The notes under the pieces were generated by a model, which did not search any database, was not told where the DNA came from, and worked only from the letters and a program-made list of their open reading frames with translations. The position numbers were made by a program, and so were the translations under genes. DNA of 64,000 bases, taken from contig NZ_JAOTBD010000002.1 of assembly GCF_026162625.1 (NCBI RefSeq), forward strand, positions 124,001-188,000, in the 5' to 3' direction. How positions within the stretch are numbered: position 1 is the stretch's first letter; every line of letters begins with the position of its first letter. Below, one piece after another: positions 2,893 to 54,105 of this stretch. The DNA comes from Paracoccus beibuensis (lineage in GTDB: Bacteria; Pseudomonadota; Alphaproteobacteria; Rhodobacterales; Rhodobacteraceae).

Positions 2893-2943
2893 TCAGCCCA
2901 GCCTGTAGTTCGGCGATTCGCGCGTGATCTGCACGTCGTGGAC
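2893..2943 (-). pseudogene. guaB': Displaced original 3' end of guaB (last 16 codons plus stop)
   Basis: Read leftward this encodes the same C-terminus as the intact gene at 52531-53979 ([16 protein letters not shown], stop). It is the host's own guaB tail, cut off from the gene by prophage insertion. Compared with the copy now completing guaB it differs in 11 of 16 codons and in the stop codon, all without changing an amino acid. Confidence 0.93.
2933..2943. repeat. Left attachment core
   Basis: ACGTCGTGGAC, identical to 52571-52581. Left of it lies the host guaB tail; right of it phage DNA begins (next base G here, A at the other copy). Confidence 0.85.
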
Positions 2944-2958
2944 GTGGTCATCTTTTTG

Positions 2959-3004
2959 CTGATGCACATTGTATTTTTTCATATTTTTTACTCCGCTGCA
3001 TCAG
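2959..3004. promoter_or_regulatory. Left-end TGCATCAG elements (possible integrase arm sites)
   Basis: The octamer TGCATCAG occurs inverted at 2959-2966 and direct at 2997-3004, within 75 bp of the attachment core; a partial copy follows near 3007. The same octamer clusters at the integrase/excisionase junction and at the other prophage end. Confidence 0.5.
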
Positions 3005-4295
3005 CTCGCATCAGTCGCGCTGCGTCTGAACGCAGGTCTACGCTCGTGAACGGCTGGATGGAAGGCCACCATTCGCGCTCCAGGACGTCGGCAACCTCGA
3101 GCACGGGACCGAGCTTCATTCGCTTGTATAGATCGGTCGTCGGACTGCCCTCTTCGAAGAGCCGGCGCCTTGTTCGGTTCGTGATCTCAAAGTGGCCCAT
3201 GACCGCACTGATGGCCGCATCACTGACCCGCTCATCCAGCCAGTCCGGAAACGTCCGTCGTATCGAATACCAGTTGACGTTGCCTTCTGGCGTCGGTTCG
3301 AGAAGCTTCCGCTTAACTTGATCTGGCGTCCGATTCTTGATGCCCCTTGCGACGACCCTCTGAATGATCTGCGTCCAGTTTCTTGAGCCCTCCGCCAACG
3401 GCTCCTTTCCCGCATAGATTAGGAAGTCGTTGCCATGCTGCGCTATCAACCGGACGAGAATCCTGTGCATTGGTCCGGTGATGGGGACGATTGGTGTGAG
3501 CTTTCGTCGATTGGTGTCGACAAAACCCTCTCCCAGCAGGTCGATGATGCCGAGGTCCAGGCTGACCTTCTTCCCCTTCATGTCGGCCACCGCGCCAACG
3601 CGGCCACCACAGCCCAGATCCAGAAGCAGCAGATCGAGGATGTGAGGACGGCGGCACGCATCAATCAGGAGACCGATCTCCTCGAAGCTGACGTAGCGCC
3701 CCTTCGGATCGCGATCCTCGGGCGCCGTGAGTCCGACGATGAATGGGATCTTCGGCGGGTTGTGGATCGTCAGGCCATCGCTCTTTGCCAAAGCACATGC
3801 TTCCGCAGCGCTCCCGACGATGTCCGCAATTGTGTTGGGATGCAGGCGCGGCTTGCCATCCGAGGTCAGGGTCTTGAGTTTAGACTTCGTGTTCTCGGGA
3901 CGTATCCGGCCCTCCTCCATGCCCAACACCAAGGCGCGCAAGGCTGGCCCCATTTTTGACATTCTGACGGACCAAAGATGGGGTTTGTAGTAGAGTTCCC
4001 GCCGGTTCTCGAGAAGCCGAAACCGCTCGCTGGCGAGCCGCTTTCGCTTATCTTGCTCATAACCAAGCCAGATTTCGCCAAAGGTTGGATCGTCACCACT
4101 ACCGGGGCGGATCGCTTCGGTGCGATCCATGTGAAGCTTCGCGCGCTCACGTGCAAGCTTTCTGGCCTGCTCGACCTCAGTTGCTTGCAACCGCTCGGAC
4201 TGAGTCTTTTTGGTGTGTGGGTTCCACCACCGCAGATAAAACGCCCCTCGGTTTATGGCGATGGTGAACCGACCAAATTTTTCCACCTTTTCCAT
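2988..4295 (-). CDS. int: Phage integrase, tyrosine recombinase
   Basis: A 435-residue tyrosine recombinase next to the left attachment core, predicted to insert and excise the prophage at guaB. The C-terminal catalytic residues can be placed: Arg232 (GGRVGAVADM), a candidate Lys265, Arg346, His368 and nucleophile Tyr390 (DLYKRM). At the first position of the usual HxxR box there is Tyr343 instead of His, a substitution known in some family members. The N-terminal 60 residues look like an arm-binding domain. The excisionase-like gene lies 42 nt upstream in the same direction, and TGCATCAG elements flank both ends of the gene. Confidence 0.93.
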   Translation of the reverse strand: MEKVEKFGRFTIAINRGAFYLRWWNPHTKKTQSERLQATEVEQARKLARERAKLHMDRTEAIRPGSGDDPTFGEIWLGYEQDKRKRLASERFRLLENRRELYYKPHLWSVRMSKMGPALRALVLGMEEGRIRPENTKSKLKTLTSDGKPRLHPNTIADIVGSAAEACALAKSDGLTIHNPPKIPFIVGLTAPEDRDPKGRYVSFEEIGLLIDACRRPHILDLLLLDLGCGGRVGAVADMKGKKVSLDLGIIDLLGEGFVDTNRRKLTPIVPITGPMHRILVRLIAQHGNDFLIYAGKEPLAEGSRNWTQIIQRVVARGIKNRTPDQVKRKLLEPTPEGNVNWYSIRRTFPDWLDERVSDAAISAVMGHFEITNRTRRRLFEEGSPTTDLYKRMKLGPVLEVADVLEREWWPSIQPFTSVDLRSDAARLMRADAAE

Positions 4296-5925: not shown

Positions 5926-5948
5926 GATCTAACCCCTCACACCCTTTA

Positions 5949-6467
5949 TCAGGATGTAGGGTCTTGAATGATTTTTCTTGCACGTTGGAGCCAGCGACAT
6001 ACGGTCGAGGAATCTACTCCCGCCAGGGCGGCGATCTCGGGGCTGGTCATGCCTTGAAGGCGACTGATGAGTGCCTCACGGTGCCGAGAGTCCTTGATCC
6101 GGTCCAGCCAGCCTTGCAGGGCGCGGTCCGCGTCGGCCTGTTCGATCAGGTCGGGGCCGTGGGCGGTGTCGATGTCGTCGTAGGGGTGCTCCTCCACGAA
6201 GTCGCGATATGCCTTCCGACGTGCCCGCTCCGTGCGAGCATAATCCCGCATCCGGCCCTTCATCCTGGCCCCGGCATAGGTCGCGAAGCTCAGGCCGCGC
6301 TGCGGGTCGAACAAGTCGATCGTGAGCCAATAGGCTTCCATGGCGCGGGATTCCACTTCATGGGCATCGAGATCCGGGTGGCGCCGGACGAAAGCCCGCA
6401 CTGTCTTCTCCGCGAACGGGAGAAAATCACGCAGCAGCTTGTTGCTGTCTCGGGTGGAGAGCGTCAT
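5949..6467 (-). CDS. Phage-encoded sigma-70-like factor
   Basis: A 172-residue protein with sigma region 2 at about 15-80 (R..HPDLDAHEVESRA..AY then SFATYAGARMKGRMRDYAR) and a region 4 helix-turn-helix at 120-166 (SPEIAALAGVDSSTVCRWLQRARK). There is no region 1 or long region 3, as in ECF-type or phage middle/late sigma factors. It should bind host RNA polymerase and redirect it. The start overlaps the phosphoesterase stop by 4 nt. It is a candidate to read the repeated promoter-like elements of this prophage; that link is inference. Confidence 0.85.
   Translation of the reverse strand: MTLSTRDSNKLLRDFLPFAEKTVRAFVRRHPDLDAHEVESRAMEAYWLTIDLFDPQRGLSFATYAGARMKGRMRDYARTERARRKAYRDFVEEHPYDDIDTAHGPDLIEQADADRALQGWLDRIKDSRHREALISRLQGMTSPEIAALAGVDSSTVCRWLQRARKIIQDPTS
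5951..5983 (-). promoter_or_regulatory. Promoter-like element A1
   Basis: Leftward: TGCAAG, then AAA..CATTCA in the spacer, then CCTACATCC, 22 nt from box to box. It stands upstream of the membrane-protein gene 5578-5925 and overlaps the sigma-factor 3' end. Confidence 0.6.
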
Positions 6468-7408
6468 TCGAAGGCCCTCTCGGCGTCATAGCGGAGTTGG
6501 GCGCCCGCGGCACGTGCCTGGCGGAGCTGCTGGGCATAGCCGCCCTCACCCCACCCTTCCATGATCTGATCGTAGGAAAACTGCTGGATGAGCGCGTTGC
6601 CGTCCGCCACCTCGGTCAGAAGCGACAAGCCCGACCACTCGAAGGGCCCGCAACGATGCGGAGGCATGAAGCAACCGGCCATGTAGGCCATCATGGCCCC
6701 GTCCTTGCCGACCGGCTTGCGATCGTAGCCCACCGTGTGGGTGTGGGCGAAGACAAGGCTCTTGCCCCACTTGTTGAGCGCTTGCGCGATCCCGACCGGC
6801 TGCCGCGAGTTCCCTGTCGGAAAGTTGTGAGAGAAGTCGATCCCGCCGATGGTGACAACCTCGCGGAAGTCGTAGCATTCCAGCCCATTGTCTTCGCTGA
6901 TCTCGTGAAGCAGGAACGTCCCGATCAAGCCATCGAGTTCGGGGATGTTCTCAGGCACCCGGTCGAGCCATCCGCAGTGGTTGCCAAGGAGCTGGATACC
7001 CCGAGGCGTGTAGACGCGCTCGCGATGCCTACTCCGATTGATGTGGCGCTCGTTCGCTCGATGGATCGGAGCCCACATCGCCCGCTGCATCTCCCGGAAG
7101 CAGGCCAAGTCCTCGCGGATGCGCTTGCGCTCGTGAGATCGGCTGCCGCCAGCACCGCCCACGGATTTCGCGCCAGCCCATTTGCTGACGGACTGCATGT
7201 CGACCAGGTCGCCCATGTGGATGATCACGTCCGGACGCTTGTCGAGCGCGAACCGCCCGACAGCGCCGGCGCGGTCCGTGTCATCGAAGCTTTCGTTAGG
7301 CCGGAAGTGAGTGTCCGGCACGACGAGGATCGATAGGGATTGCGCCCCGCTTCGAAACTGCTCCGCTCGCCTGTTCTGCTTCATGGCCCGACCTGCATGT
7401 TTTTTCAT
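6464..7408 (-). CDS. Calcineurin-like metallophosphoesterase
   Basis: A 314-residue protein with the ordered metal-binding motifs of the family: DTH (residues 32-34), GDLVD (66-70), GNH near 143, an isolated His in SHNF, and AHTHT replacing the usual GHxH. It would hydrolyse phosphomonoesters or phosphodiesters in the cytoplasm; the substrate is unknown. Two starts are possible: ATG at 7408, which sits almost directly on a promoter-like -10 box and would give a near-leaderless message, or ATG at 7384 behind a weak AGG. It is coupled to the sigma-factor gene. Confidence 0.85.
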   Translation of the reverse strand: MKKHAGRAMKQNRRAEQFRSGAQSLSILVVPDTHFRPNESFDDTDRAGAVGRFALDKRPDVIIHMGDLVDMQSVSKWAGAKSVGGAGGSRSHERKRIREDLACFREMQRAMWAPIHRANERHINRSRHRERVYTPRGIQLLGNHCGWLDRVPENIPELDGLIGTFLLHEISEDNGLECYDFREVVTIGGIDFSHNFPTGNSRQPVGIAQALNKWGKSLVFAHTHTVGYDRKPVGKDGAMMAYMAGCFMPPHRCGPFEWSGLSLLTEVADGNALIQQFSYDQIMEGWGEGGYAQQLRQARAAGAQLRYDAERAFE

Positions 7409-7418
7409 TCATACAGGG

Positions 7419-7448
7419 AAGATAGGACCCGGAAAGCCTACCCAAAAA
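7419..7448 (-). promoter_or_regulatory. Promoter-like element B1
   Basis: Leftward TTTTTGGG, then 22 nt from the start of that box, CCTATCTTCCC. It lies immediately before the phosphoesterase gene. Confidence 0.55.
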
Positions 7449-7451
7449 CAA

Positions 7452-9680
7452 TCAGCCCGGAGAACTGATTTCCGCGTCGATGATCGGGTCCGGGAACTGC
7501 CCGGATACCTCCCAGGCCGTCGCGCCAGCATCCAGGAAAGACAGGCTCTTCCAGCCAGCCTTGTAGACAAAGAGTCGCCCCGACGGGGCCGCCATCAGGC
7601 TCAGCCCCTCATGCGTCTTTTCCGGAGTCTCGAAGGCGGGAAGCTTCGGCATCTCGCGCCAAGTTTCGAGGTCGTCGCTCGCATGCACCATGCCGGACGG
7701 ACTGACCTTGCAGTAGCTCGACAGCGGCTTCGACCAGACCAGCGCAGAGCCCGCTTCAACGACCGAGAGAACTCGGAATGTCAGGTCGTCGCCATCGATC
7801 TCGATCACAGCGCCATTTACACAGACCGCAAGCAAGCGATCTGTCCCGCCGATCAAGCGATCGACAACAAGGCCATCGAGCCCGACAAGCTGACCGCTCG
7901 GGGTATGGGCGCCCAAGGCCGAGGCTGCGAACCGTTCCCCCTTATCTGTGTGAGCGACATGCGTCGCCGCGATGCCGTAGTCCGCCACCTGAGAGACGAC
8001 GCCCGCCTTGACGCGGAGAGCCCGGTCCCGATCAAGGATCGAGGTCGAGCCATCCGGGACGTTGCGCTCAATGGCGGCGATGTCCATGCTCGTCGCATCG
8101 AGGATTTCGAACAGCCGCACATTGTCGATGTAGACGTTGGCTGGCGTGCCCTCGCCGCGGATATAGACTTCAACCTCGTCGAGCGCGGCGGCCAGATCGG
8201 CCAGGACTTCGAGGTCCATCCACTGGACGTCTCCGGTCGCAGATGCTGAGACATCGATCCAGCGGGTGCCGCCTTGATGCTCAAAGAGCGGGGTCGGCAG
8301 GAGTCTCACCTCATTCCAGGGCGTGTCGGTGGTCGCGAAAATAATCCGCACCTGACTGACGTCGGTTAGGAGGACCGAGCAGGCTCCATTCACAACATTG
8401 GAGCGCGCGTCAGTGTAGGCACGGCCCTCATAGTTGCGAGTTCCCATTTTCAGCTCAGTCCCCTCAGCCGGACGGATCTCGACGCCAGCGACCTTCTCGA
8501 TGTAGGCACCGCGACCAGAGTCCATGTTATTAAGGGAAAAGCCGCCACTCACGGGAGCAGGCTCTTTCGTGTCGTTGAACCGGAAGTTCAGCCTCATGAC
8601 CATATCCCAGTAGCGAGACCGAATGCCTCCTGCGGGGCCGCGCGCGCCGGTCGGGTCAGCGTTCATTGAATGCACACCCGAAATGTAGCTCTCCAGCAGC
8701 CAAGCCGCCTCAACCTCGCGGCCGTTGATTTGCGTCACATTGCGGACGACGCTCGGATATTTGTGCGTGCTGTAGCCGACGCCGACATTACCATCCCAGA
8801 GCAGAGCATCGAAGCCCGGCACCTCGGGCGCTTCGATCTCGCCGCGCAGGCCGATGGTCGCCGTCGCGCCGATTTCCGTGTAGGCTGCGCCGGTCAGCTT
8901 CAATTTCCGGGCACCCTCGGACAGCAACACCCGCTGCGAGATCTCGAAATTTCCAGAGTTGTCGCCCGTAACCCAGTCCCGTGTCAGGTAGCTCGTCGAG
9001 CCAAGACGCTGCGCCGGCTGTGTCGTCGAGCGGGTCCGGGGACTGTCGCCAGAGACGTAGTCCCAGCCGTTGGTATAGTCCTCGAAGTCGCCGTTCAGGA
9101 TGGGAATCTCGACCTCGCTGACACCCAGTTCGCTGATGTCGAGCCAGGACGCCAGGTCGATGGAGCGGTAGACGGCGTTGGCAGTCGCAACGATGACCGG
9201 CGCCCCATTGGGTGCGGACAAGCCAAGCGGGGACGCCGGAGCGCCGCTGATATGCTTCCAGCCGTCGCCGCCATCCTCGGACAAGGAGACTGAGCCGTCA
9301 TGCAAGACGACAAGCCGCTCGCCGGCGACCGGCGGCATATCTACGGGCGGTGTCTCCGGGAACTCCGGCGAGGGCACCAGCGGTAGATCGACTTCCGGGA
9401 CATCTGGTGGCGTGATGTCCGGGTCGGCCAGGCCGTCGAGGTAGGACTGGATATCGTCGTAGTCGTAGATGTCGTCCCAGGCCTCCATGGGGATCTGAGG
9501 ATACATCGGCGCCAGGCTGCGGGCGCCGTCGCGGATCGCGCGCCGCTCCAAAGCGGGAGACCCCTGCGAGGCCGTCTTGTCATATCGACCAGGGGCGCTC
9601 TCCCGATCAGATTTCGGGGCCTGATAAAGCGTGCGCGGATCGCGCTCGTGTGCCCGGATCAGGGCTGCCATCGTGCTCAT
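7452..9680 (-). CDS. Tail tip / receptor-binding protein with carbohydrate-binding-like domain
   Basis: 742 residues, the last and largest protein of the tail module. The N-terminal 100 residues include an acidic, proline-rich linker (DPDITPPDVPEVDLP). Residues about 120-180 look like a propeller-type repeat (VLHDGSVSLSEDGGDGWKHI) that recurs in the last 150 residues (DRLLAVCVNGAVIEIDGDD). The middle part begins ILNGDFEDYTNGWDY, typical of jelly-roll carbohydrate-binding modules. These features fit a cell-surface-binding tail protein. No catalytic motif was seen. Confidence 0.6.
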   Translation of the reverse strand: MSTMAALIRAHERDPRTLYQAPKSDRESAPGRYDKTASQGSPALERRAIRDGARSLAPMYPQIPMEAWDDIYDYDDIQSYLDGLADPDITPPDVPEVDLPLVPSPEFPETPPVDMPPVAGERLVVLHDGSVSLSEDGGDGWKHISGAPASPLGLSAPNGAPVIVATANAVYRSIDLASWLDISELGVSEVEIPILNGDFEDYTNGWDYVSGDSPRTRSTTQPAQRLGSTSYLTRDWVTGDNSGNFEISQRVLLSEGARKLKLTGAAYTEIGATATIGLRGEIEAPEVPGFDALLWDGNVGVGYSTHKYPSVVRNVTQINGREVEAAWLLESYISGVHSMNADPTGARGPAGGIRSRYWDMVMRLNFRFNDTKEPAPVSGGFSLNNMDSGRGAYIEKVAGVEIRPAEGTELKMGTRNYEGRAYTDARSNVVNGACSVLLTDVSQVRIIFATTDTPWNEVRLLPTPLFEHQGGTRWIDVSASATGDVQWMDLEVLADLAAALDEVEVYIRGEGTPANVYIDNVRLFEILDATSMDIAAIERNVPDGSTSILDRDRALRVKAGVVSQVADYGIAATHVAHTDKGERFAASALGAHTPSGQLVGLDGLVVDRLIGGTDRLLAVCVNGAVIEIDGDDLTFRVLSVVEAGSALVWSKPLSSYCKVSPSGMVHASDDLETWREMPKLPAFETPEKTHEGLSLMAAPSGRLFVYKAGWKSLSFLDAGATAWEVSGQFPDPIIDAEISSPG

Positions 9681-14309: not shown

Positions 14310-14330
14310 TCGCGGTCCCTATTCCTTTTG

Positions 14331-14363
14331 CAGGATATAGGGCGGTGAATGCTTTAACTTGCA
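14331..14363 (-). promoter_or_regulatory. Promoter-like element A2
   Basis: Leftward TGCAAG, conserved spacer with GCATTCA, and CCTATATCC at the fixed 22-nt distance. It sits upstream of the tail chaperone gene. Confidence 0.6.
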
Positions 14364-16797: not shown

Positions 16798-16820
16798 GAG
16801 CGGTTCCTTCTGGGCTTTCC

Positions 16821-16853
16821 GGGATATAGGGGGGTGAATGTTTTCGCTTGCAC
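16821..16853 (-). promoter_or_regulatory. Promoter-like element A3
   Basis: Leftward TGCAAG, AAAACATTCA, CCTATATCCC at the fixed spacing, before the tail tube gene. Confidence 0.65.
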
Positions 16854-20661: not shown

Positions 20662-20680
20662 CGTGCTTCCCGTCATTTTT

Positions 20681-20713
20681 GGGATATGGGGGGGTGAATG
20701 TTTTCGCTTGCAT
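20681..20713 (-). promoter_or_regulatory. Promoter-like element A4
   Basis: Leftward TGCAAG overlapping the endolysin stop region, AAAACATTCA, CCCATATCCC at the fixed distance. It serves the protease-capsid genes. Confidence 0.6.
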
Positions 20714-23208: not shown

Positions 23209-23227
23209 TCACTACCCCGGACTTTCC

Positions 23228-23260
23228 GGGATATAGGGAAGTGAATGTTTTTCCTTGCAG
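23228..23260 (-). promoter_or_regulatory. Promoter-like element A5
   Basis: Leftward TGCAAG, AAAACATTCA, CCTATATCCC; upstream of the gpW-portal genes. Confidence 0.65.
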
Positions 23261-25918: not shown

Positions 25919-25944
25919 TTCGCGCCCCTGGAGGTGTCCTTGTT

Positions 25945-25977
25945 AAGATGTAGGGGTGTGAATGTTTTAACTTGCAA
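25945..25977 (-). promoter_or_regulatory. Promoter-like element A6
   Basis: Leftward TTGCAAG, TTAAAACATTCA, CCTACATC at the fixed spacing, before the terminase genes: the likely main late promoter. Confidence 0.65.
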
Positions 25978-37329: not shown

Positions 37330-37360
37330 TTTTTGGTTCATCGCTCCCAGGCCTATCTCC
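37330..37360 (+). promoter_or_regulatory. Promoter-like element B5
   Basis: TTTTTGGTTC then CCTATCTCC at 22 nt, followed by a GAAAAACAGGCAGGAGG leader ending in a strong ribosome binding site. Confidence 0.6.
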
Positions 37361-37394
37361 TCCATAGCTCAAGAAAAACAGGCAGGAGGCAAGA

Positions 37395-37430
37395 ATGGTG
37401 ATCCCGACATCAACCTTGCGCCCAAGCTGA
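37395..37430 (+). CDS. Eleven-residue open frame behind a strong ribosome binding site
   Basis: MVIPTSTLRPS and stop, 7 nt after AGGAGG and 35 nt after element B5. It ends in a run of eight A. It may be a leader peptide for the tRNA-RNA ligase cassette or a remnant of a displaced gene start. Confidence 0.3.
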   Translation: MVIPTSTLRPS

Positions 37431-37494
37431 AAAAAAACTCGCATGTTGTGTGCGACGGTGATGATCCGGCCCTATTTCCTCTGTGAGGCATGCG

Positions 37495-37527: not shown

Positions 37528-37604
37528 CCGGACGTAGCTCAACTGGATAGAGCGCCGGCCTACGAAGCCGGAGGTTGCAGGTTCGAATCCTGCCGTCCGG
37601 GCCA
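37528..37604 (+). tRNA. tRNA-Arg(ACG), phage-encoded, CCA included
   Basis: All four stems pair: acceptor CCGGACG/CGTCCGG, D stem GCTC/GAGC, anticodon stem CCGGC/GCCGG with loop CTACGAA (anticodon ACG), T stem GCAGG/CCTGC with loop TTCGAAT. The discriminator is G and CCA is encoded. With A34 edited to inosine it reads CGU, CGC and CGA, the common arginine codons of this GC-rich host. It stands alone in the prophage, directly before an RNA ligase gene. Confidence 0.93.
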
Positions 37605-37627
37605 ATCCGCACCCCAAGAAACATTCG

Positions 37628-37659
37628 TTTTTGTGCAGATCCCGCTGGACCTAATTCCC
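37628..37659 (+). promoter_or_regulatory. Promoter-like element B6
   Basis: TTTTTGTG then CCTAATTCCC at 22 nt, 33 nt before the RNA ligase start. Confidence 0.55.
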
Positions 37660-37691
37660 TTTCAGATACCAGAACAGGGAGTGAACATCCG

Positions 37692-38636
37692 ATGGCCGCC
37701 TTCACGAAGTTTCCGAGCATCGACAGCTTTTCGCATGTCTATCGCCGGCAGTTCAAATCTTTCAATCCGCAGATCTGCCGCTACGGGGCGAAGATCAAGC
37801 TTCATGGCACCAATGCCGGCATCCGGGTCTCGACCAACGGCACCGTCGTCGCCCAATCCCGCAACCGCGACCTCAGTGTCGACGCGGACAACTTCGACTT
37901 CGCGGCATGGCTTGACGGCGTCCGCGATCTCTTCGCCGGCTGCGTCCAACCTCAGGACGCCGTGTTTTTCGGTGAGTGGGCGGGCCCCGGAGTTCAGCCG
38001 ACCGACGCTGTCTCCAAGACTGACCGTCGTCGGTTCTTCGTCTTCGCGATCCAGGTCGGCGAGATCATGCATTACGACCCGGAGTTCATCCGGGCGCTGA
38101 CGCCGTCGCACCCCGACATCGAGGTCCTGCCCGTCGAGTTTGAGATCCTAATTGATTACTCCGGACCCACCGCAGAGCTTGTGGAGCGCGTCAATGGCGC
38201 TGTCGATGCCATCGCCCAAGAGGACCCATACATCGCTCGCATGTTCGGCGTCAGCGACGCTGGTGAGGGCCTTGTGCTCGCCCCTCTCGCACCGATGACC
38301 ATCTATGAGTGGCCGGCCCTGACATTCAAGTCTAAGGCCGAGGCGCATCGGGTCAAGAAGGAAGGCAAGGCGGTCTCCGAGAAGCTCTCGATCCCGACTG
38401 GCGCTCAGGATTTCGTCTCGGCCTTCGTAACCGAGGCGCGCTGCCGTCAGGGTCTGGCCGAGGCGTGTGGCGGTGTCGCTGACCCTCGCACGATCCCCGA
38501 CTTCCTGAAATGGATCGGCGGCGACGTGAAGAAAGAAAGCCAGGCAGAGATCGAGGAGATGGGTCTGGAATGGTCTGCGGTCGCGAAGTTCGTCAACCAG
38601 GCCGCAGTGCGGTGGTTCAAGGCGCAGGGGGTGTGA
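37692..38636 (+). CDS. RNA ligase (Rnl2-like nucleotidyltransferase)
   Basis: 314 residues. The ligase motifs occur in order: motif I KLHGTN with nucleophile Lys36, motif III around FFGEWAG (Glu95), motif IIIa FFVFAI, motif IV EGLVLAP near 195, and motif V FKSKAEAH near 212. This is the ATP-dependent RNA ligase/capping superfamily, closest in pattern to Rnl2-type RNA ligases. It would seal RNA nicks in the cytoplasm. The start follows GGGAGTG; a longer frame runs through the tRNA and is rejected. The neighbouring tRNA suggests a role in tRNA repair. Confidence 0.85.
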   Translation: MAAFTKFPSIDSFSHVYRRQFKSFNPQICRYGAKIKLHGTNAGIRVSTNGTVVAQSRNRDLSVDADNFDFAAWLDGVRDLFAGCVQPQDAVFFGEWAGPGVQPTDAVSKTDRRRFFVFAIQVGEIMHYDPEFIRALTPSHPDIEVLPVEFEILIDYSGPTAELVERVNGAVDAIAQEDPYIARMFGVSDAGEGLVLAPLAPMTIYEWPALTFKSKAEAHRVKKEGKAVSEKLSIPTGAQDFVSAFVTEARCRQGLAEACGGVADPRTIPDFLKWIGGDVKKESQAEIEEMGLEWSAVAKFVNQAAVRWFKAQGV

Positions 38637-38643
38637 AGGATAT

Positions 38644-38672
38644 GGGCGGGAGTTCTCCCGCCCTTCTTTTTT
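38644..38672 (+). terminator. Terminator after RNA ligase gene
   Basis: GGGCGGGA, GTTC loop, TCCCGCCC, then TTCTTTTTT. Its T run also forms the first box of element B7. Confidence 0.8.
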
Positions 38673-38700
38673 GGTTCAGGCGATTTGTCCCTATTTCCCC
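38667..38700 (+). promoter_or_regulatory. Promoter-like element B7
   Basis: TTTTTGGTTC (from 38668) and CCTATTTCCCC at 22 nt, then GAAAAACAGACTGACAGGAGG before the next gene. Confidence 0.6.
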
Positions 38701-38735: not shown

Positions 38736-39350
38736 ATGAGCAAGACGATTACGCTGAAGCGGGATGACCTGGAGGAGGTGGTTAGGACGGCATTGCGGCT
38801 TGGTTCGCAGTCCGGCGGCGTGAAGCACAAGCGGCTGGTTCAAGGCATCATGGAAGAGGCGGAGGAGAAGGCGGTCGCGCCCGAGATCCGGCAGCCAATT
38901 AAGTTCACGCTGAGCGAAGACCTGATCAAGAAGCTTAAGGCTCCCCTTGATCCGGTGAAAGTTATTAGCGCTGGCGACCTTGAGGACTTCGACCCCTTCG
39001 ACGTGCCGCCGATGACGCGCCGGGCTGGCACCTTCCGCGATTTTACCAAGCATGCGACCCTCGGCGAAGAGATCCTCCAGCATGTCGAACGGGGTGTGCC
39101 GGTATGGAATCTGCTTCAGCGCGTGACTGGGAAGCCGATCAAGGAGCTCCAACAGATCGTCGCTGCCGGCGGCGCTGAGGACACCAGAGCCGCGGTGATC
39201 GAGGCGCTTCGGAAGCGTGCGATCTCATACACGTCGCCGGGAATCCCTGCGACCGTCGATGCGACCCGTCGGATGTCGGCGGTGCAGGCGGCCTTCATTC
39301 TCTTCATGAACGACATCCCCCGCAAACCGAGCGAAGAAAGGAGGTCGTGA
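38736..39350 (+). CDS. Unknown phage protein
   Basis: 204 residues, preceded by a strong AGGAGG and element B7. The N-terminus resembles a small DNA-binding repeat (KTITLKRDDLEEVVRTALRL); the middle contains DPFDVPP and helices ending IEALRKRAISYTSPGI. No domain recognised. It is followed without gap by a 10-codon frame. Confidence 0.65.
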   Translation: MSKTITLKRDDLEEVVRTALRLGSQSGGVKHKRLVQGIMEEAEEKAVAPEIRQPIKFTLSEDLIKKLKAPLDPVKVISAGDLEDFDPFDVPPMTRRAGTFRDFTKHATLGEEILQHVERGVPVWNLLQRVTGKPIKELQQIVAAGGAEDTRAAVIEALRKRAISYTSPGIPATVDATRRMSAVQAAFILFMNDIPRKPSEERRS

Positions 39351-43666: not shown

Positions 43667-45307
43667 TCAGTCGTCGATTTCGAAGCCCCTGGGCTTGCCC
43701 ATCTTCTCGACCTCGGCGACGTTCTTCAGGCCCGCGGAGACAACGGGATCTTTGAGAAGTTCGACCCGCCTGGCGGCGGCGGTGATGTCGGCAGCATAGC
43801 TCAGGAGAGTGTCGCGCCAGGCGCCGAGTTCACGAGCCAGTTTCTTCAGTGCCGTCTCTTTCTCGGCGAGCTTTTCAGCCCTCTTGTCGAGTTCTGCGTC
43901 GCGGTCATCCAGCTCTTTCTGCTTCACTTCCCTTGCCGCCTTCGCCGCCTCATCTGCCGCCTTGCGACGCGCCTCAGCCTCGCGATCGAGACGCGCCCTC
44001 TCCGCCGCCGCCTGTCTGTCTTCCTCAGCTCTGCGGAGTGCTGCGGCTTCATTCTGACGGGCGCGCTCGATGGCCGCCTCTGCCGCGAGTTTGGCAATAA
44101 CGGCATCGGGATCTGCGACCATGTCTTTCGCCGAACCGAACCGCTCCTCGAAGGGTTTCAGGAGCGCGTTCATCTCGCCGCGGGTCCTCGCTCCGTCCCT
44201 CGTTTCGTGCGTGACGACGCCGAGAGTGAGTAGTATGTCGAGCGCGATCTGGGATGCCTGATGCGTGCGGATTTTACTTGCATCGCCGCCCTTCGCCGCC
44301 GCCTCTTCCTCGATCCTTTTGCGCAATGCGAACATCATCTGAGCCCGCGGCGAGCCCGGCGGAATGATGCTGTCGGCGCCGTCGAGAAACTCGTCACCCT
44401 GGACTTCGATGAGCGCCTTGTCGGCATACTTCTTGGCCTCCCGAAGAGCGGCCGCCCGAGGCTCAGCGCGCACAATATTCATGTGCTGATGCTCCGGCGA
44501 TTGGAACCAGGCGCCGACCGCATCTTGCGCAATTTCGTAGCCCTTCTTGCGCCAAGTGACCGGGTTTCCATCCTTGTCCACCTTGCCCTCGATCGGGATC
44601 TCTTCGCCGCCGATGAGGGGGTGATGCGCCGACCGGAAAAGCTTCCGTCCGTCAGCATAACGATCCGACGCCGGCTCCTCGATGATGTCGTAGATCAACC
44701 CCTGAAGGTGGATGCTTTGCTCGTCGAAATCGACGCGGCAATACTTCAGCATCGAGCCGAACTCATTCTGCATGAAGCCCAGCCCGGCCTGCGTGAACTC
44801 CTCGCACTTCCGCTTGTCAAATCGCGCAAGCCGACCCTCGTCGTCGAGAAACTCAAGGACATGCTCCGCCGGACAATCGTCAGCCGCCCGGAACTTGTCG
44901 CGATGAACCGTGAGGACAAATTCACGAAGTGGAGGACCCGATTTCGCGTTCTCGGTCCAGGGGTTCTGCGGACCTGCATTCATCACCGCTGCGGCAGCTT
45001 TCTTTCCGCGCTTTTTCTTCGTCCCTTTGATGTTAGAGAGGTGGTTCGCGTTCTTCATCCGCAGCTCTTCGAGCCGCACAATGTCCGCGATGGAGTTGTC
45101 GCCGACGAGGACGCGGTTGAGATGTTTTCGGCTTGGATCGCAGTGAGAAACATCCCCGATCCGCCGCTCCGCATGAGCGATCATCCCGGCGACATCTTTG
45201 GGTGAAAGGCTGGCGAAGCGAAGCACTGCCGGGAACTTTCCGTCGAGCCTGACGCGCTCCGCATATGTGAGTTCCCGCAGGCGCTCCGCGTAGGTTTTCT
45301 GTGCCAT
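43667..45307 (-). CDS. MobV/Pre-like relaxase homologue
   Basis: 546 residues. The N-terminal 220 residues follow the Mob_Pre layout: a segment with HAERR...DPSRKHLNR, then VLTVHRDKF, then NEFGSMLKYCRVDFDEQSIHLQGLI. The canonical HxDExxxHxH reads VDFDEQSIHLQG (192-203), so one or two metal-binding histidines are missing. A long coiled coil (about 395-520) and a short C-terminal tail follow. MobV proteins nick plasmids at oriT; a prophage copy is unexpected. It may be inactive as a relaxase or serve in phage DNA processing. Confidence 0.6.
   Translation of the reverse strand: MAQKTYAERLRELTYAERVRLDGKFPAVLRFASLSPKDVAGMIAHAERRIGDVSHCDPSRKHLNRVLVGDNSIADIVRLEELRMKNANHLSNIKGTKKKRGKKAAAAVMNAGPQNPWTENAKSGPPLREFVLTVHRDKFRAADDCPAEHVLEFLDDEGRLARFDKRKCEEFTQAGLGFMQNEFGSMLKYCRVDFDEQSIHLQGLIYDIIEEPASDRYADGRKLFRSAHHPLIGGEEIPIEGKVDKDGNPVTWRKKGYEIAQDAVGAWFQSPEHQHMNIVRAEPRAAALREAKKYADKALIEVQGDEFLDGADSIIPPGSPRAQMMFALRKRIEEEAAAKGGDASKIRTHQASQIALDILLTLGVVTHETRDGARTRGEMNALLKPFEERFGSAKDMVADPDAVIAKLAAEAAIERARQNEAAALRRAEEDRQAAAERARLDREAEARRKAADEAAKAAREVKQKELDDRDAELDKRAEKLAEKETALKKLARELGAWRDTLLSYAADITAAARRVELLKDPVVSAGLKNVAEVEKMGKPRGFEIDD

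Positions 45308-52530: not shown

Positions 52531-54105
<1,575 letters not shown>

Follow-up and report, generated by a model that had tools for sequence, protein, structure and literature searches.

A tRNA-Arg(ACG) gene beside a T4 Rnl2-type RNA ligase gene in a temperate prophage of Paracoccus beibuensis

We analysed a 64-kb stretch of Paracoccus beibuensis DNA (contig NZ_JAOTBD010000002.1, positions 124,001 to 188,000; the window), in which a gene for tRNA-Arg(ACG) is followed directly by a gene for an RNA ligase of the T4 RNA ligase 2 (Rnl2) type. Both genes are part of a temperate prophage of about 49.6 kb and are found in its early-type right arm. They represent two known kinds of translation-protection gene side by side and possibly cooperate, with the ligase resealing nicked tRNAs; we hold this reading with roughly even confidence. 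Each gene is partly under its own signals, a joint cassette is not demonstrated, and nothing that we found shows selection of the two as a pair. The tRNA gene, the family and fold of the ligase, the prophage, its attachment (att) site and a set of promoter-like elements are established by the evidence below, and what the ligase catalyses, which ends it joins, what it acts on and how it serves defence are points that we infer. A first-pass annotation had described the pair as a tRNA repair or replacement cassette; its observation was confirmed and its interpretation was partly supported.

The tRNA gene, the ligase and their prophage

ARAGORN found one tRNA in the window, tRNA-Arg(acg), complete and with an encoded CCA as first described. 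Its Rfam RF00005 score of 71.5 bits (gathering score 29) ranked eighth among the 40 tRNA matches in its own genome (3.94 Mb, 99 contigs). We rejected the idea that this position holds a ribozyme or another kind of Rfam element, as the two further matches there were both under their gathering scores. The host has tRNA-Arg genes with the anticodons ACG (contig C11), CCG, CCT and TCT, and the prophage ACG gene comes on top of these. Over its 77 nt, the prophage tRNA was identical to host CCG at 59 positions, to ACG at 53, to CCT at 52 and to TCT at 53. The anticodon loop was the same as that of the host tRNA-Arg(ACG); the anticodon stems differed. The closest DNA matches in 125 same-genus genomes reached 87% over 63 nt among the matches listed, and all seven of these best-matching loci that were checked were tRNA-Arg(CCG) genes, for which reason a recent copy of a genus tRNA was rejected. 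The exact tRNA pattern had no match in the viral contigs searched.

The ligase open reading frame (ORF) starts 87 nt past the end of the tRNA gene and encodes 314 residues. It matched Pfam RNA_ligase with 36.4 bits (cut-off 27) and PHROG_548 ("RNA ligase") with 146.8 bits over residues 4–304. The alignments contained K36-L-H-G-T-N, FGEWAG, FFVFAIQ, EGLVL and FKSK, which we take to be nucleotidyltransferase motifs I, III, IIIa, IV and V, respectively, in agreement with the first description of this protein. K36 was near-invariant across 22 aligned ligases. In one relative (locus L090, IMG/VR 3300028388_004315), motif I reads KIELHGTN, a glutamate replacing the presumed catalytic lysine of the other aligned ligases; this is perhaps an inactive copy or a sequence error. 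The nearest solved structures, by sequence profile and by fold, were Rnl2 enzymes (PDB 2hvq, 2hvr and 1s68), and a single-sequence PDB search gave no match at 0.001. The profile alignment extended to residue 301 of the 335 of T4 Rnl2. Chain 2hvr_A aligned with residues 2–314 of the ligase model at an rmsd (root-mean-square deviation) of 12 Å; the region past residue 225 is barely tested. Judged by profile and fold, the protein is a member of the T4 Rnl2-type family. It resembles T4 Rnl2 (gp24.1) in that the best profile and fold match covers the nucleotidyltransferase domain and extends into the C-terminal region, whereas identity is only about 20% and T4 is a large lytic phage, in contrast to the 50-kb temperate prophage here. 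The closest relative found was 79% identical and came from a 45.8-kb viral contig (L037). The nearest named ligases, 41–48% identical over nearly the full length, were those of the Roseobacter-group phages DSS3P8, RcXuper, MD18 and DSS3_VP1. Neither RtcB nor a second PF09414 ligase was found in the host genome, and a plasmid search gave no match.

The prophage setting was borne out by an integrase gene adjoining the left att copy, by structural genes and by the att copies themselves. PHROGs matches on the minus strand comprised integrase, tape measure, major tail protein, head protease, portal and large terminase; further matches were to small terminase, primase/helicase, exonuclease and single-strand binding protein. 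The att copies are 51-bp versions of the 3' end of guaB, the IMP dehydrogenase gene (ORF 52531–54024, minus strand; TIGR01302, 586.6 bits). They differ at 10 positions, all spaced by three or multiples of three bases, a pattern that fits restoration of the guaB coding sequence by a recoded 3' end from the phage. In the flanks of same-genus genomes, where the left and right flanks lay on separate contigs or far apart, an empty site was not directly visible. Since the tRNA gene lies about 15 kb within the prophage and the att copies lie in guaB, integration did not use the tRNA as its attachment site, and this candidate was rejected. A phage tRNA may also stand in for a host tRNA that integration has disrupted (PMC10865867), and a temperate phage with a single tRNA would suit such tRNA-dependent lysogeny. 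The guaB att copies led us to reject this explanation, which is scarcely credible here: they differ at every-third positions only, neither end showed a remnant of a host tRNA among the matches listed, and the host tRNA-Arg(ACG) gene is intact.

Transcription signals around the pair

A promoter-like element, TTTTTG-N17-CTAT[T/C]TCC, was present at nine distinct prophage sites with at most one mismatch per half (Table 1). Twenty shuffles gave an expectation of 0.35 matches, a figure that flatters the element since the motif was derived from the same sites. It is probably a second, early-type signal. The ligase gene looks like a self-contained unit because it has its own copy of the element, a terminator-like hairpin at its end and, just beyond, the element of the next gene. 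Immediately upstream of the tRNA gene only the half site CTATTTCC was found. The claim that each gene has its own leader signals therefore held for the ligase and in part for the tRNA, whose nearest full upstream element starts 198 nt away. As no terminator was found between the two genes, they may be partly co-transcribed. A generic sigma-70 scan found no promoter there.

Table 1. Positions in the window of the tRNA gene, the ligase gene and related features
Feature	Position	Strand	Remarks
tRNA-Arg(ACG), encoded CCA	37528..37604	+	7-bp acceptor stem, anticodon loop CTACGAA, discriminator G73
Rnl2-type RNA ligase, 314 aa	37692..38636	+	Start codon ATG at 37692, ends with stop at 38636; Pfam, PHROGs, motif alignments, profile and fold comparison
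Promoter-like element TTTTTG-N17-CTATCTCC	37330..37360	+	Exact copy, 198 nt upstream of tRNA
Half site CTATTTCC	37472..37479	+	48 nt upstream of tRNA
Promoter-like element of ligase	37628..37658	+	One mismatch; starts 64 nt ahead of ligase ATG
Terminator-like hairpin	38644..38663	+	T-rich tail; directly 3' of ligase
Promoter-like element of next gene (38736–39350)	38668..38698	+	
Promoter-like element, nine starts	7448, 28554, 29729	-	
	30982, 37330, 37628, 38668, 46995, 49006	+	
Left att copy	2897..2947		51 bp of guaB 3' end; 41/51 identical to right copy
Right att copy	52535..52585		3' end of guaB ORF
Phage integrase	2988..4295	-	PHROG_1 65.7 bits; no Pfam match at 0.001; adjoins left att copy
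Metallo-phosphoesterase-like gene	6464..7408	-	PHROG_221 91 bits; Pfam 20.4 bits, below cut-off of 21.5

Past the 37330 element, positions 37394–37429 contain a strong ribosome-binding site and an ATG resembling the leader of the 38736 gene, in a frame that stops after 11 codons. This is perhaps a gene remnant, or a leader displaced by the tRNA gene. Elsewhere in the prophage, six 41-nt repeats (5942–5982, 14323–14363, 16812–16852, 20672–20712, 23219–23259 and 25936–25976) sit at or just upstream of the starts of minus-strand, mostly structural genes, and the gene at 5949–6467 resembles RNA polymerase sigma factors; the repeats are perhaps late promoters read by a phage sigma factor. A 546-aa prophage protein (43667–45307) matched MobV relaxase weakly (36.1 bits, cut-off 100) and is kept in a similar prophage (L097).

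Gene neighbourhoods of related ligases

The pairing of tRNA and ligase is not conserved. No tRNA lay less than 2.5 kb from the ligase in any of 27 ligase loci (25 distinct records, some stretches short), which counts against a cassette; the tRNA scan left out 14 short, distant loci (L074–L087). A tRNA-Ser occurred 2.5 kb away from a truncated ligase in L073. In the viral contig with the 79%-identical ligase, no tRNA was found over its 45.8 kb. There the gene after the ligase is partly homologous to the 38736–39350 gene, although a viral-contig search for relatives of the latter confirmed none; a sigma-70-like gene (7125–7919 of that contig) lies directly upstream of its ligase. In L097 the ligase is placed elsewhere in a similar prophage gene order, ahead of an exonuclease homologue, and the one tRNA of the contig is at its very end. 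The methyltransferase and the 36206–37294 gene found upstream of the tRNA recur as a pair in L126 and L127, in stretches without a tRNA. The four Roseobacter-group phages are, unlike the prophage, large and carry up to about 30 tRNAs elsewhere, none of them within 5–6 kb of the ligase.

A further survey covered 19 loci from phage records, with a 3-kb flank (cut at record ends) scanned by ARAGORN. Three had tRNAs, each with one less than 300 nt from the ligase: Proteus phage RP7 (79 and 4 nt), Acidovorax phage ACP17 (275 and 7 nt) and Providencia phage PSTCR5 (296 nt). Because the RP7 and PSTCR5 ligases are 91% identical, the adjacency recurs in two lineages, both lytic, rather than three. These phages differ from the prophage in that they are listed as large (103–156 kb), in that other tRNA species adjoin their ligases and, for RP7 and PSTCR5, in carrying tRNA clusters. 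The ligase-flanking tRNAs that ARAGORN placed in ACP17 (L131, KY979132.2; 276–351 and 1666–1753) are missing from its feature table. For Klebsiella phage K18PH07C1 (L128, OY978784.1), the record puts tRNAs over the ligase where ARAGORN finds none, and the locus was excluded from the adjacency count; its many listed tRNA features seem displaced.

A wider control took the best 80 of at least 504 confirmed IMG/VR loci, 67 after removal of near-duplicates, with up to 10 kb on each side. Any tRNA was present in 21 of the 67 stretches. A tRNA lay within 500 nt of the ligase in six loci, versus 4.3 expected from the other ORFs there, and within 200 nt in two, versus 2.9; one of the six (L148) carries the PSTCR5 ligase, itself among the query sequences. 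The counts show no clear preference of Rnl2 genes for positions near tRNAs, and the term "cassette" was not upheld.

In a mosaic phage, the two genes may have come together by chance: the tRNA would be a freely exchanged passenger, and the ligase would serve another task on RNA, without any interaction between the two. The closest relatives lacking the adjacency, the control counts and the different placement in L097 all favour this account. Against it, a single prophage tRNA would land beside the ligase in roughly a few per cent of cases, a rough, uncomputed and post hoc estimate, and the adjacency recurs in ACP17 and in the T5-like phages of Proteus and Providencia. We regard mere coincidence as a possible but rather doubtful explanation.

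Possible roles against tRNA-cutting nucleases

Phage tRNAs and RNA ligases have been linked to the countering of tRNA-cutting defences (passages in PMC10264068, PMC7824862, PMC11555353 and PMC5511906), in line with the first-pass annotation. In the reading that we favour, in which two translation-protection genes lie side by side, the extra tRNA-Arg(ACG) would top up the arginine tRNA pool; this would be its simplest role, and tRNA supply has been shown to defeat retron-Eco7 and PrrC170 (part of PMC11555353). The ligase would self-adenylate on K36 and seal RNA nicks with 3'-OH and 5'-phosphate ends. Its most likely substrates would be tRNAs, or structured RNAs of other kinds, that metal-dependent ribonucleases of the host nick in the course of infection, leaving ends of this type. 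The two genes were probably gathered separately, and either could work alone.

PrrC- and colicin-type nucleases are not known to leave 5'-phosphate and 3'-OH ends. The suggested resealing of tRNAs cut by PrrC or colicin D would thus meet the wrong ends, and it is further disfavoured by the ligase being of Rnl2 rather than Rnl1 type and by the fact that no kinase was recognised. The kinase search compared 46 prophage ORFs with PHROGs, many of them without a match and several short ORFs unscanned; as first noted, neither a kinase nor a phosphatase adjoins the pair. Phage ATP-grasp ligases require a 5'-phosphate and a 3'-OH, and kinases and phosphoesterases are often added by phages (part of PMC7824862); T4 answers PrrC with Pnk and RNA ligase 1 (part of PMC3014915). 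AriB of the PARIS system, as described in part of PMC12409363, cuts between nucleotides 40 and 41 and leaves 3'-OH and 5'-PO4 ends, which an Rnl2-type ligase could seal unaided.

The phosphoesterase gene at 6464–7408 had been proposed to process ends. It has relatives in 529 phage records and a promoter-like element at 7448, and lies 30 kb from the ligase. A role other than ligase partner is at least as likely, because it directly precedes the sigma-factor-like gene. The proposal is unsupported here, although not absurd given other loci: a phosphatase, phosphoesterase or annotated kinase/phosphatase lies no more than a few genes from the ligase in 7 of 24 phage-record loci (DSS3_VP1, ABPH49, Kashira, SSBI34, Cr30, FENT2 and J2-1, the last four counted partly or wholly by record annotation). 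In DSS3_VP1, unlike the prophage, a phosphoesterase lies directly upstream of the ligase.

Three points weigh against our favoured reading. The partner genes in those seven loci fit ends that are healed rather than ready-made. No matching host tRNase was identified: the PrrC/RloC-type domain AAA_13 had no match in the prophage's own genome, and PIN, HNH and Toprim nucleases were not searched. To our knowledge, T4 Rnl2 has no settled role in vivo, and for this reason naming tRNA as the substrate is guesswork.

A true two-part counter-defence cassette, in which a replacement tRNA-Arg and a ligase act together against one arginine-tRNA nuclease, would be a stronger claim. The genes are adjacent and on the same strand, with no intervening terminator found. 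Targeted phage tRNAs carry loop mutations (part of PMC10264068); this hallmark is absent from the prophage tRNA, whose loop equals that of the host tRNA-Arg(ACG), and the description of the tRNA as uncut is not borne out, the stem being what differs. For the same source, a phage tRNA whose target site is unaltered is an exception that is explained when the phage has a ligase, and the unaltered loop here fits that case. The same idea has been put forward for a temperate mycobacteriophage with an RNA ligase, a kinase, tRNA-Arg and tRNA-Gly (part of PMC5511906). On the other side, the linkage is not conserved, the ligase has a separate promoter-like element and a kinase was not recognised; we consider such a cassette unlikely.

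That temperate phages may counter host defences by means of an RNA ligase and a tRNA-Arg has already been proposed in print, for Mycobacterium phage CrystalP and cluster E (part of PMC5511906). CrystalP differs from the prophage in also having a polynucleotide kinase and in that its ligase (gene 90) lies apart from its tRNAs (genes 107 and 108). Among the papers listed in our literature searches, we saw none on a temperate prophage in which an Rnl2-type ligase gene directly adjoins a tRNA gene.

Codon compensation, by which the tRNA would serve codons commoner in the phage than in the host, was examined by comparing 29 ORFs of the prophage with 72 from the host that were picked mechanically. 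CGC was slightly commoner in the prophage (45.4% of arginine codons versus 42.4% in the host sample), but CGT, CGC and CGA together made up 64.2% of arginine codons in the prophage versus 67.5% in the host, arginine codons were 7.5% versus 10.5% of all codons, and the host owns an ACG tRNA. We rejected this explanation, which is very improbable on the codon-use comparison.

A narrower version of the favoured reading is a compact two-part anti-tRNase unit in which an arginine tRNA with an unaltered loop is tolerated because the neighbouring Rnl2-type ligase, with no end-healing partner, reseals the clean 3'-OH/5'-phosphate nicks of metal-dependent defence nucleases, for example AriB- or VapC-like enzymes. 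We think it improbable, a little more so than the cassette; if true, Rnl2 enzymes would have a role in vivo that is separate from the Pnk/Rnl1 pathway. We know of no settled in vivo role for Rnl2-type ligases. The neighbour-gene control warns against taking adjacency for function. In a host where neither RtcB nor another PF09414 ligase was found, a temperate phage this small, with a single tRNA and a single Rnl2-type ligase, offers a simple setting for asking whether such enzymes repair tRNA nicks that are ready to seal.
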